A DNA stretch of 64,000 bases, from contig NZ_WJBU01000012.1 in the NCBI RefSeq assembly GCF_009646335.1, positions 62,001 to 126,000 of the forward strand, written 5' to 3'. The notes beneath the pieces are model-generated. The model was not told the DNA's origin and ran no database searches. It saw only the letters and a program-made list of their open reading frames with translations. The stretch is from Caenimonas koreensis DSM 17982 (GTDB lineage: Bacteria; Pseudomonadota; Gammaproteobacteria; Burkholderiales; Burkholderiaceae_C). Shown here piece by piece: positions 59,707-63,710 of the stretch (position 1 is its first letter; each line of letters starts with the position of its first letter). A program made the translations under genes and the position numbers.

Positions 59707-61458
59707 TCAGAAGTTCAGTGGGCGTATGAGTTTGCGGGCATCGGGGCGCATCGAATCGAGCCCGTCCACCAGCCATTGCAAACTCCCTGGCGCATCCCGT
59801 TCGCCATCGGGAAGCATCGCGACAGTGATATGGAATTTCAAAGTCGCCGCAGGCGGTAGTGCGTCGTTGGGTCGCAGCCCGCTCGCAACGAGCTGCTGCG
59901 CGCGGCTCATGGCAATTTCGGCGGTTGTAGGCCCTTCGAGCAGCAGCGCGAAGTCGTGACTGCCGACGCGCGCCGCCAGGTCGATATCGGTGATCGCATG
60001 CCGCAGATGCGAGGCGGCGACCACCAGCATGCGCTCACCGGTCTCGCGACCGAACTCCTCGATGATCGCGTCGAAATTCGAGATGCGGGCAGCCAGCAGC
60101 GCGCACGGGCGTTTCAGGGTGCGCGCACGCGCGATGGCGTCGTCGAGCCGCTGCAGCAGCGTGCGCTGATGGGCTATGCCGGTGAGGGCGTCGTTGTGCG
60201 ACAGGGCGGCCGCGCGCACGCGCGACTCGCGGCGGCGGTTGCCGCGCAGCGTGAGCGCATAGAACAGGATCGGCATCTCCACGGCAGCACCGATCGCGAG
60301 CGCATAGCGCGTCAGGCCACTGGCCGGCATCAGGTTGAGGCCGCGGGCCACCGGGAAGAGCGCCATCACGACGACAGGAACGAAGCCGAGCGCAATGAGC
60401 CGGATGTACGGGTCGTCGCCCTTGATCCAGACCATTGCGATGAGTCCGGCCACCGTCACCAGCGACAGGACCGCAAGCACCATCACCACTGCAAACGACG
60501 TGCGTGTGAGCAGCCACGTGTCGAGCGCGACGGCGGCCAGCAGCGCAAGGATCAGCAGCCACACGAACATGTCGAGCACCTTCGAGAAGCGGCCCGGCTC
60601 CGTCACCGTCCGGGCGAACCACAGCGCGGCTGCGCCCGATATGCCGGGCAGCACGAATGTCGCGACCTCGTTCCACTTCAGCATCTCATTCCAGATGTGC
60701 TGCGCCCCGACACCGAGGTAGGCGAGCTGCCCGATGGCCAGGGAGCCGACGTACACGGCATACACAGCGAAATTGCGGTCGCGATAGGCAATCGCATTGG
60801 CTGCAGCCACCAGCGTGATCAGCAAGGCGAGGCCGAAGTACGCGCCCAGCAGGAACTGCTCGCGCTCGCGCGACGCGACGAGTGCTGCCTGGTCATAGAG
60901 CGCCACAGGTGTCGCGAAATCGACGCGTGCGTGCTCCACGCGCAGGAAATGGCGCACAGGTTCCGTGCCCGCACTGGAGAGCTCGAACGTCGGGAAGCGC
61001 CCTGGCACGGGCCAGTCGGACACGGCCTTCACATCGCCCGCCTCCTGCTCGACCCACTGGCCATCTGCGCCCCGGTAAAACAGTTGTGCGCGATCCAGGC
61101 CCGACGACTGCAGCTCGATGAACCAGCGCTTGCGTGTGGGCAGCACCGTGTCAAAGACGATCCACATCGCTTTATTGCCGTCGAGGTTGTATGAGCTGCC
61201 GGGAACACGCAGTTGCCACGGCAGCGTGTCGGCGAGGGCGGCCGCCTCGACTTGTTCGACGGGCCGCTTGCCGGTGTCGTCGATCCAGAAACGGCTGCGC
61301 GAGTCCAGGGAGATCACGCGCTCGCCCGCGCCGAGCACGATGGCAGCCGGAGCGGGCGTGGCGGTGGATGGCGTCCCCTGGGCGCCCGCCATGCCCATCG
61401 AGCACAGCCACCACAACACTCCTATCCAGCAGGAGATGGTTGTCGTTGTTCGTCCCAC
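59707..61458 (-). CDS. 7TM-DISM sensor protein with degenerate GGDEF domain
   Basis: 583 residues. Signal peptide, extracellular 7TMR-DISMED2-like beta domain (about 40-195), seven membrane helices (about 205-400, beginning LLGAYFGLALLITLVAAANA), then a GGDEF-fold domain (about 420-560). The active-site motif GG(D/E)EF is replaced by GSHDF in LAARVGSHDFALLLEG, and the first metal site reads ARISNFDAI. Diguanylate cyclase activity is therefore unlikely. It may bind GTP or c-di-GMP or act as a dimer scaffold. No partner gene is adjacent; it lies downstream of rpoH in the same direction. Confidence 0.82.
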   Translation of the reverse strand: MGRTTTTISCWIGVLWWLCSMGMAGAQGTPSTATPAPAAIVLGAGERVISLDSRSRFWIDDTGKRPVEQVEAAALADTLPWQLRVPGSSYNLDGNKAMWIVFDTVLPTRKRWFIELQSSGLDRAQLFYRGADGQWVEQEAGDVKAVSDWPVPGRFPTFELSSAGTEPVRHFLRVEHARVDFATPVALYDQAALVASREREQFLLGAYFGLALLITLVAAANAIAYRDRNFAVYAVYVGSLAIGQLAYLGVGAQHIWNEMLKWNEVATFVLPGISGAAALWFARTVTEPGRFSKVLDMFVWLLILALLAAVALDTWLLTRTSFAVVMVLAVLSLVTVAGLIAMVWIKGDDPYIRLIALGFVPVVVMALFPVARGLNLMPASGLTRYALAIGAAVEMPILFYALTLRGNRRRESRVRAAALSHNDALTGIAHQRTLLQRLDDAIARARTLKRPCALLAARISNFDAIIEEFGRETGERMLVVAASHLRHAITDIDLAARVGSHDFALLLEGPTTAEIAMSRAQQLVASGLRPNDALPPAATLKFHITVAMLPDGERDAPGSLQWLVDGLDSMRPDARKLIRPLNF

Positions 61459-61490: not shown

Positions 61491-61520
61491 GAAATAAAAA
61501 AGCCCGGCGGCGCCGGGCTT
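61491..61520 (-). terminator. Rho-independent terminator after rpoH
   Basis: On the minus strand AAGCCCGGC, loop GCC, GCCGGGCTT followed by TTTTATTTC; 28 bp after the rpoH stop codon. Confidence 0.92.
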
Positions 61521-61548
61521 AATGTTGAAGGCCTGATGGCCCAGGCGC

Positions 61549-62481
61549 TCAGGCGTAGGCCGCAAGAGCCTTCTTCATTTTCTTCATTGCTGCCGATTCG
61601 ATCTGGCGGATGCGCTCTGCGCTCACGCCGTATTCGGCAGCCAAGTCATGCAGCGTCAGGCCGCCCGAGCCGTCGTCATTGACCTTCAGCCAGCGCTCTT
61701 CCACGATGCGGCGGCTGCGGTCGTCGAGTGTTGCCAGTGCGGCGGTGATGCCGTCGGTGGCCAGTTCGTCGCGCTGGCGCGATTCGATCATCTGCGTGGG
61801 CTCATGCCCCACGTCTGCGAGATAGGCGATCGGGCCGAAGGCTTCATCACCCTCATCGCTGGGCGAGGGGTCGAGCAGCACATCGCCACCGGCCATGCGC
61901 GCTTCCATCTCGATGACTTCTTCGCGCTTGACGTTCAGCTCGCGCGCCATCGTCTCGATCTGCGAGTCGGTCAGGCTGTCGCGATGCGTCTGCACGCCTT
62001 CGTCGTCCTTGAATCCCTGCTTCATCGAGCGCAGGTTGAAAAACAGCTTGCGCTGCGCCTTGGTCGTCGCGACCTTGACCATGCGCCAGTTCTTCAGGAT
62101 GTATTCGTGGATTTCGGCCTTGATCCAGTGCAGCGCATAGCTCACGAGGCGCACACCCTGGTCAGGGTCGAAACGCTTCACCGCCTTCATCAGGCCGATG
62201 TTGCCTTCCTGGATCAGGTCGCCGTGCGGCAAGCCGTAACCCAGGTACTTGCGCGAGACCGACACTACGAGGCGAAGGTGCGACAGCACCAGCTTCCCGG
62301 CCGCTTCGAGATCGTTTTCATCACGCAGCTTGCGCGCGAATTCCTGCTCCTGTGCCAGCGTCAGCATGGGCAGGCGGTTCACGGCGGAGATATACGCGTC
62401 CAGATTGCCCAGCGACGGAACAACTGCCCACGGATTGGCTACAGCCAGCGCGGTACCCTGGGATGCCAAAGGTGTCGACAT
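61549..62481 (-). CDS. rpoH: Heat-shock sigma factor RpoH (sigma-32)
   Basis: 310 residues from the ATG at 62481, chosen because GAAAGGAA precedes it and because the predicted transcript start (near 62505) leaves almost no leader for an alternative ATG at 62499. Region 1.2 NLDAYISAVNRLPMLTLAQE, region 2 with LRLVVSVSRKYLGYGLPHGD and LIQEGNIGLMKAVKRFDPDQ, the RpoH box QRKLFFNLR, region 4 with LHDLAAEYGVSAERIRQIES. Regulated by a perfect CIRCE operator just upstream, so HrcA probably controls it. Confidence 0.96.
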   Translation of the reverse strand: MSTPLASQGTALAVANPWAVVPSLGNLDAYISAVNRLPMLTLAQEQEFARKLRDENDLEAAGKLVLSHLRLVVSVSRKYLGYGLPHGDLIQEGNIGLMKAVKRFDPDQGVRLVSYALHWIKAEIHEYILKNWRMVKVATTKAQRKLFFNLRSMKQGFKDDEGVQTHRDSLTDSQIETMARELNVKREEVIEMEARMAGGDVLLDPSPSDEGDEAFGPIAYLADVGHEPTQMIESRQRDELATDGITAALATLDDRSRRIVEERWLKVNDDGSGGLTLHDLAAEYGVSAERIRQIESAAMKKMKKALAAYA

Positions 62482-62511
62482 GCGGGGAGTTCCTTTCATA
62501 TAGGGAATGGG

Positions 62512-62541
62512 ATATTAGCACTCGGTTAGACGGAGTGCTAA
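62512..62541 (-). promoter_or_regulatory. Probable rpoH promoter overlapping CIRCE
   Basis: Minus strand: -35 TTAGCA (62541-62536), 18-bp spacer, -10 TAATAT (62517-62512), transcript start near 62505. The -35 is the first half of the CIRCE arm and the -10 overlaps the other arm, so HrcA would block polymerase directly. Confidence 0.55.
62515..62541. promoter_or_regulatory. CIRCE operator (HrcA binding site)
   Basis: TTAGCACTC, nine bases (GGTTAGACG), GAGTGCTAA: an exact match to the consensus inverted repeat for HrcA. It lies 34 bp upstream of the rpoH start codon. Confidence 0.97.
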
Positions 62542-62663
62542 CCAGCAAGTTCACCCGAAGCATAACGAAATTAAGGGTTATCCCGGCAACCAAAAGGTCA
62601 TTTTGCGGGCCGGCTAACCCCCGCCTCACTAAGACTACTTATGGGTTACAGCCGGATGGTCGG

Positions 62664-63710
62664 CTACTGCAGCAACGCCAGCGCAAATTCCCGGGCGTTG
62701 AAGGTTTCGAGGTCTTCCAGCTTTTCGCCGACCCCGACGAAGTAAACAGGCACCGGCTTTTCCGTGGCAATGGCCGCGATCACGCCGCCCTTGGCCGTGC
62801 CGTCCAGCTTGGTGATGATCAAGCCCGTCAGGCCCAGCGCATCGTCGAAAGCACGCACCTGCGCCAGCGCGTTCTGGCCCGTGTTGCCGTCAATCACCAG
62901 CAGTACCTCGTGCGGGGCCGTGGCATCGGCCTTTTGCACGACGCGCTTGATCTTGCGCAGCTCTTCCATCAGGTGCATCTGCGTGGGCAGGCGGCCGGCG
63001 GTATCGACCAGCACTACGTCCTTGCCGCGCGCCTTGCCCGCGGTCACGGCGTCGAATGTCACGGCGGCCGGATCGCCACCGGCCTGGCTCACGATCTCCA
63101 CCGTATTGCGATCCGCCCAGACGGCGAGCTGTTCGCGTGCCGCCGCACGGAACGTGTCGGCAGCGGCCAGCAACACCGTTGCGCCTTCGTCGGCGAGATG
63201 CTTCGTGAGCTTGCCGATCGAGGTCGTCTTGCCGGCGCCGTTCACGCCCGCCACCATGATGATCGTCGGCTTGAACTCGCCGATCACCAGCGGTTTTTCC
63301 AGCGGCTTGAGCAACTGGGTGAGTGAGTCGATCAGGATGTTCTTGACCTGGACGGGCCGCGTCGCGCCGCTGGCTTGCACCCGGCGCTTGACTTCACCGA
63401 GCAGCTGCTGGGTCGCCTTGACGCCGGTGTCCGCCATCAGCAGCGCACTTTCGAGCTCTTCGTAGAGGTTGTCGTCGATCTGCGCGCCCGTGAACACCTG
63501 CGAAATGCCCGTGCTGGTCTTGCGCAGCCCGGCACTGAGTCGATCAAGCCAGCGCTGCCGCTCGGGCGCGACAGCCTCGGGCACAGGAATCTCCATCGGC
63601 TGCACGAGGGCGGTGCCGATGAGACTGCCGCCCGATGAGGCAGGCACGGGTGCGGGGCTGGATGCAGGTGCCGGCGCAGCCGCCGGCTTTTTCCTGAAGA
63701 AACTGAACAT
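62664..63710 (-). CDS. ftsY: Signal recognition particle receptor FtsY
   Basis: 348 residues. Short A region rich in Ala/Pro, then the N domain (LDRLSAGLRKTSTGISQVF) and the SRP GTPase G domain: MVAGVNGAGKTTSIGKL, AADTFRAAAREQL, LVDTAGRLPTQMHLM, ITKLDGTAKGGVIAAI and the closing YFVGVGEKLEDLETFNAREF. Targets ribosome-nascent chains to SecYEG. The acidic domain of E. coli FtsY is missing, as usual in this group. Divergent from the M16 peptidase gene, 29 bp apart. Confidence 0.97.
   Translation of the reverse strand: MFSFFRKKPAAAPAPASSPAPVPASSGGSLIGTALVQPMEIPVPEAVAPERQRWLDRLSAGLRKTSTGISQVFTGAQIDDNLYEELESALLMADTGVKATQQLLGEVKRRVQASGATRPVQVKNILIDSLTQLLKPLEKPLVIGEFKPTIIMVAGVNGAGKTTSIGKLTKHLADEGATVLLAAADTFRAAAREQLAVWADRNTVEIVSQAGGDPAAVTFDAVTAGKARGKDVVLVDTAGRLPTQMHLMEELRKIKRVVQKADATAPHEVLLVIDGNTGQNALAQVRAFDDALGLTGLIITKLDGTAKGGVIAAIATEKPVPVYFVGVGEKLEDLETFNAREFALALLQ

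Follow-up and report, generated by a model that had tools for sequence, protein, structure and literature searches.

The window (the whole 64 kb stretch of DNA that was analyzed) ends with rpoH and ftsY, both on the minus strand, followed by the start of another open frame past ftsY. Sigma-32, the product of rpoH, is the standard example of a heat-shock regulator, and what is taught about its control comes from E. coli. The gene was identified with NCBIfam model TIGR02392 (394 bits against a cut-off of 323), and the whole genome holds one match above the RpoH cut-off. A CIRCE operator sits between ftsY and rpoH, interleaved with promoter-like elements of two types. The features at the locus are as follows.

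61549..62481, minus strand: rpoH (sigma-32), 310 amino acids from the ATG at 62481, with AAAGGAA ahead of the ATG
62512..62520, minus strand: TGC-TAATAT, a candidate extended -10, with TGC and TAA in the right arm of the operator and TAATAT at 62517-62512
62515..62541, no strand assigned: CIRCE operator, a putative HrcA site; an exact 9-N9-9 palindrome, kept at rpoH in the order and the class
62526..62530, minus strand: TCTAA, sigma-E-type -10, inside the CIRCE spacer and 16 bp from GAACTT
62536..62541, minus strand: TTAGCA, a possible sigma-70-type -35 from the left arm, matching the consensus at 4 of 6 positions
62547..62552, minus strand: GAACTT, sigma-E-type -35, conserved and co-shifting with the -10 in the order set
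62664..63710, minus strand: ftsY, the upstream gene, co-directional with rpoH

The list of open reading frames places the start of rpoH at an in-frame ATG, 62499. A ribosome-binding site before 62499 would have no room, because transcription is expected to start at about 62505; we infer that the true start is the ATG at 62481 and judge 62499 less likely. The gene adjoining rpoH (59707-61458, minus strand) encodes a protein with a C-terminal GGDEF domain (NCBIfam TIGR00254, over the cut-off). An RNA thermometer in the rpoH leader was considered and found no support, the 5' mRNA folding no better than shuffled sequences (z 1.67).

On the plus strand, the palindrome at 62515-62541 reads TTAGCACTC-GGTTAGACG-GAGTGCTAA without a mismatch, which confirms the claim of an earlier note on this DNA that an exact CIRCE (TTAGCACTC-N9-GAGTGCTAA) lies upstream of rpoH. 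The operator ends 33 bases before the rpoH ATG at 62481, which puts it in the promoter or leader region of a gene of the heat-shock response. It is the single CIRCE match in the window at up to three mismatches; none of 100 dinucleotide shuffles had any match, and chance is excluded as its source.

The earlier note had made its HrcA reading depend on the presence of an hrcA gene. One is present in the same genome (4.6 Mb in 43 contigs), at C1:152616-153593, in a frame free of stops and with a score of 306 bits against the TIGR00331 cut-off of 197.2. The genome contains two CIRCE sequences at up to three mismatches, one at rpoH and one 103 bases ahead of groES, and the reversed control gave 0. 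As these two are the whole list, hrcA itself carries no CIRCE at up to three mismatches.

Promoter-like elements sharing the operator

The earlier note read TTAGCA (62541-62536) and TAATAT (62517-62512) as the -35 and -10 of one promoter with 18-bp spacing. The spacing is as described; each hexamer agrees with the consensus in four of six positions, and a consensus sigma-70 scan of 62300-62720, in which at least 9 of 12 matches were required, listed no promoter. The -10/-35 reading therefore rests on comparison. For this purpose, 251 rpoH sites were used (158 from the order and 93 from the class, including those of four class genomes without hrcA and of four same-genus genomes outside the hrcA search), together with 26 groES sites that have a CIRCE at up to four mismatches, out of 30 genomes; the four genomes dropped are the four that lack hrcA.

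At rpoH, the right arm and the three bases that follow it, mostly NAT, form a -10-like TANNNT in 236 of the 251 sites, in comparison to 0 of the 26 groES sites. TGC was present in all 158 order sites and was joined to TANNNT in 155, while TTG opened the left-arm -35 in 39. Changes in the arms at rpoH fell on the left 142 times and on the right 55 times (5 and 6, respectively, at groES), and the first base of the -10 (T) was changed in 2/251 rpoH sites versus 4/26 groES sites. Taken together, this supports the rpoH right arm as one that would double as a -10-like element. Among the 101 left-arm changes in the order, 57 were at position 3, all but one of them A to G, and 36 were at position 1; a G at position 3 would be compatible with a TTG -35, whereas the position 1 change would not.

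Sigma-E promoters have the consensus GAACTT ... TCNNA, and a second pair of elements of this type is threaded through the CIRCE. GAACTT-N16-TCTAA spans 62552-62526; the pattern GAACTT-N15..17-TCTAA has a single match in the window and none in 100 shuffles, and the looser GAACTT-N15..17-TCNNA has three matches (shuffle mean 0.5). The single-promoter picture of the earlier note was thus incomplete in that it missed these overlapping elements, although its reading of HrcA at rpoH stood. When the 158 order sites are profiled position by position, a modest yet clear preference emerges for GGGAACTTTT 8-17 bases ahead of the left arm (at most 0.7 bits per position), and another for T-C-A where the spacer begins. 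These preferences agree with a sigma-E-type -35 and -10 of the above consensus, the TC of the -10 usually being the final two bases of the left arm.

Exact GAACTT was found in 61 of the 158 order sites, between -24 and -6 and mainly at distances of -16, -15, -13 and -11 from the CIRCE. In 55 of these 61, TCNNA followed at 15-17 bases, in comparison to a mean of 31.8 and a maximum of 41 over 1000 trials in which positions were dealt out among genomes. All seven order sites with GAACTT at -11, the window included, have TCNNA at 16 bases. Where the -35 of an order site stands at another distance from the CIRCE, the -10 thus appears usually to shift along with it. The same test in the class gave 29 observed against a permuted mean of 29.0 and is uninformative, since 32 of the 33 exact -35s there are at -15 or -16; the order set alone tests the coupling. 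GAACTT, a distance of about 16 bp, TCNNA and coupled spacing, the last from the order set, were therefore all found.

Allowing up to one mismatch in GAACTT, the sigma-E-type element is present in 161 of 259 rpoH upstream regions versus 3 of 259 on the opposite strand, the regions being those not called hrcA-less and including that of G120 (see below), five same-genus genomes outside the hrcA search and cases at contig edges. In genomes without hrcA, the exact element was found in 5/48 (opposite strand 0) and the one-mismatch element in 7/48 versus 5/48 on the opposite strand, so the element does not appear to be general there. A relic extended -10, TGCTANNNT, was also sought in these genomes and was rejected as weak (14/48 versus 7/48 on the opposite strand; shuffle mean 2.9, maximum 8). 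By eye, decayed arms with promoter-like bases kept were seen at rpoH loci L240 (genome G070), L458 (G303) and L072 (G217) and in the Pseudomonas locus L350.

Promoter context also separates the two kinds of operator. A sigma-32-like promoter was found at 22/26 groES sites versus 16/251 rpoH sites, and a sigma-E-like element at 0/26 versus 155/251. The groES operator accordingly lies just after a sigma-32-like promoter and in no TANNNT, in contrast to the rpoH right arm. At the groES locus L214 of G217, which lacks hrcA, the left arm was decayed, the right arm intact and CTTGAAA kept.

Occurrence of the site with and without hrcA

In order to survey the order, an even draw of 200 genomes was used, of which 197 had rpoH and 3 had no match; 178 upstream regions were read and 19 were left out. 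A CIRCE at up to four mismatches was present at rpoH in 155 of 156 genomes with hrcA versus 0 of 22 without it. In G166, the single hrcA-bearing genome that missed it, the contig begins with rpoH; in G206, one of the 155, the arms are exact and the spacer is 10 bases long. The hrcA-less group includes G120, whose hrcA match (5.4e-7) falls below the cut-off, 177 of the 178 matches being above it, and G221 and G224, which were assigned by elimination; G158, without hrcA and without an rpoH match, is in no count. Five further genomes of the same genus, outside the hrcA search, bring the upstream DNA read to 183 genomes. Four of the five have the site; in the fifth, G031, a contig edge cuts the region off, and no CIRCE at up to two mismatches was found anywhere in its genome.

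Both hrcA and the site are absent from G089 (family f4), G070 (genus g39), G197 (genus g100), G149 and G213 (genus g78, family f25) and G217 (family f32), while relatives in the same family (G089, G149, G213, G217) or the same genus (G070, G197) have both. Placement by family and genus points to several separate losses of hrcA together with the site. Across the order most arm positions hardly vary, which points to steady selection.

The class sample comprised 140 genomes, nearly all from different families, of which 130 had rpoH and 128, outside the order set, were read. A CIRCE was present at rpoH in 90 of 97 genomes with hrcA versus 4 of 31 without; for class and order alike, the Fisher tests ignore relatedness, and their p-values are set aside here. 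Four genomes whose hrcA matches fall under the curated cut-off (G341, G295, G317 and G349) were counted as having the gene, and all four have the site. The seven hrcA-bearing genomes without a site at rpoH (G298, G270, G369, G339, G260, G366 and G247) all have CIRCE-like matches elsewhere at up to two mismatches; HrcA therefore probably works in them, though not at rpoH. At rpoH of G270, the left arm was decayed and the right arm remained.

Fourteen genomes with neither hrcA nor the rpoH site were scanned whole, and none contains a CIRCE at up to two mismatches; in two of the fourteen, the reversed control had a match by chance. The four class genomes with a CIRCE at rpoH (up to three mismatches) and no detected hrcA (L441/G346, L446/G250, L440/G301 and L474/G353) may reflect recent loss of hrcA or a gap in the assembly. 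A second CIRCE in G353 makes it possible that its hrcA was missed in an incomplete assembly.

A predicted control site for rpoH

What the DNA shows directly is which elements are present, how they are arranged, that they are conserved, and that hrcA and the site are missing together. With a probability of roughly 0.8, we consider 62512-62552 to be a control site for rpoH, in which a sigma-E-type promoter and a sigma-70-type extended -10 are interleaved with one CIRCE through which HrcA would repress rpoH. From these elements we infer HrcA binding, use of the promoters and repression, as well as the link to GroEL and the circuit outlined here. HrcA control of rpoH, as predicted by the earlier note, is supported by the comparison: the site tracks hrcA in both order and class, and the right arm appears to double as a -10-like element.

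Bound HrcA would cover the sigma-E-type -10 as well as the -35 and half of the -10 of the sigma-70-type promoter, so that either polymerase would be kept off while HrcA is active; repression would thus proceed by blocking RNA polymerase. In other bacteria, HrcA is inactivated by heat or by titration of GroEL, that is, by loss of free GroEL. Heat or unfolded protein would here disable HrcA and free rpoH and groESL together, after which sigma-32 would drive groESL via the sigma-32-like promoter beside the second CIRCE.

Counting against this control-site reading are the seven of 97 hrcA-bearing class genomes that lack the rpoH site and the four of 31 without detected hrcA that keep it, as well as the weakness of the sigma-70 hexamers and the three matches in the window to the looser GAACTT-N15..17-TCNNA pattern. 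The alternatives differ in what they make of these and other facts. The arrangement proposed by the earlier note, a CIRCE over one sigma-70 promoter with the sigma-E-type elements incidental, gains from the near-invariance of TANNNT past the right arm (236/251), which exceeds that of GAACTT (exact in 61/158 order sites). We regard it as unlikely, given that GAACTT-N15..17-TCTAA is found once in the window and in no shuffle, that the -35 and -10 shift together in the order, and that E. coli K-12 rpoH has GAACTT-N16-TCTGA while its best ftsX-rpoH match to CIRCE carries 8 mismatches. It is less probable still that the palindrome is kept for another cause, such as mRNA structure or another repressor, with HrcA inactive at rpoH. 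HrcA binding at rpoH is a prediction, and the four class genomes that retain the site without detected hrcA would agree with such a cause; against it, site and hrcA are absent jointly, even beside same-genus relatives that have both (g39 and g100), the palindrome lies upstream of the start expected from the sigma-70-type -10, and in 61500-63000 an Rfam search with E up to 1 returned no match, nor is the 5' mRNA fold unusual (z 1.67).

A somewhat larger, though still minor, share of probability goes to an HrcA that binds and matters little, with translation and turnover setting sigma-32 as in E. coli and the operator trimming basal transcription. The control of sigma-32 in E. coli is mostly post-transcriptional, and the seven hrcA-bearing class genomes manage without a site at rpoH; the near-invariance of most arm positions across the order, suggestive of steady selection, speaks against so small a role.

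If HrcA shuts off rpoH in most hrcA-bearing relatives, the two heat-shock systems would form a stack instead of running in parallel, and signals of both chaperonin status and envelope stress would converge on a single site of 41 bases. The joint lack of repressor and operator offers a natural series on the rewiring of the heat-shock response after repressor loss. It is somewhat more probable than the opposite that the ancestor of the class had an rpoH with this composite switch, a sigma-E promoter and a sigma-70 extended -10 with an HrcA operator running through both, that E. coli rpoH is the remainder after loss of hrcA, and that the decaying operators with kept promoter bases in some lineages belong to the same history.

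Known systems and named relatives

The closest known systems are CIRCE/HrcA at groESL and at hrcA-grpE-dnaK-dnaJ, which resemble the rpoH site in operator, repressor family and heat-shock target; the window genome has the groES case itself. E. coli K-12 rpoH has the same kind of upstream element as the window, GAACTT-N16-TCTGA, which we take to be the sigma-E-dependent promoter P3, and no CIRCE between ftsX and rpoH. The control genomes that gave an hrcA match do not include E. coli.

The earlier note mentioned comparative work proposing HrcA control of rpoH in betaproteobacteria. This is supported in part by an exact CIRCE upstream of rpoH in Geobacter sulfurreducens, as in the window, listed at -51 from the translation start in Table 8 of PMC545781, a paper that also cites Permina and Gelfand 2003 for the heat-shock regulons of beta-, gamma- and epsilon-proteobacteria. 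The target is therefore not new. G. sulfurreducens is one deltaproteobacterium, and the passages of PMC545781 consulted make no mention of promoter overlap or sigma-E at that CIRCE. No report of HrcA at rpoH in betaproteobacteria was seen, most subscription papers being outside the scope of the search; we only tentatively call the interleaved layout unreported, as the search was not aimed at sigma-E overlap. The present comparison would add the spread of the site through the class, its absence in step with that of hrcA, and the way a single operator is threaded through promoter elements of two types. In the part of PMC3135505 consulted, a table gives no HrcA for Neisseria gonorrhoeae and N. 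meningitidis and one each for Chromobacterium violaceum and Laribacter. For Xylella under nitrogen starvation, a review consulted in part (PMC11764788) gives a rise of more than 4-fold for hrcA and of 2-fold for rpoH, a joint rise that counts against simple repression, which does not predict it.

RpoH relatives were scanned among the best 80 of 589 loci, a set from which near relatives of the window may be missing and in which the presence of hrcA was outside the scan. Among the matches listed, the nearest RpoH has 83% identity (a Pseudomonadota MAG), followed at 79% by Diaphorobacter aerolatus, an Acidovorax MAG and another MAG. Within these best 80 of 589 loci, 54 have a CIRCE at up to three mismatches upstream of rpoH. 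All 41 loci from L280 (Diaphorobacter) to L320 have one, including Variovorax, Pandoraea, Janthinobacterium, Thiobacillus, Polynucleobacter and Nitrosomonas. The other 26 lack a CIRCE at up to four mismatches and include Haemophilus, Aeromonas, Rahnella, Dickeya, Photorhabdus, Halomonas and Pseudomonas; the sigma-E-type element was exact in 16 of the 25 examined. Xanthomonas pisi (L322), counted among the 26, has a changed CIRCE with five mismatches and an exact sigma-E-type element. In its left arm GCAGTC replaces GCACTC, as it does at rpoH in L326 (Luteimonas), L372 (G246) and L355 (Lysobacteraceae). The change in L355 is symmetric in both arms (TTAGCAGTC-N9-GACTGCTAA), which hints at a lineage-specific operator.
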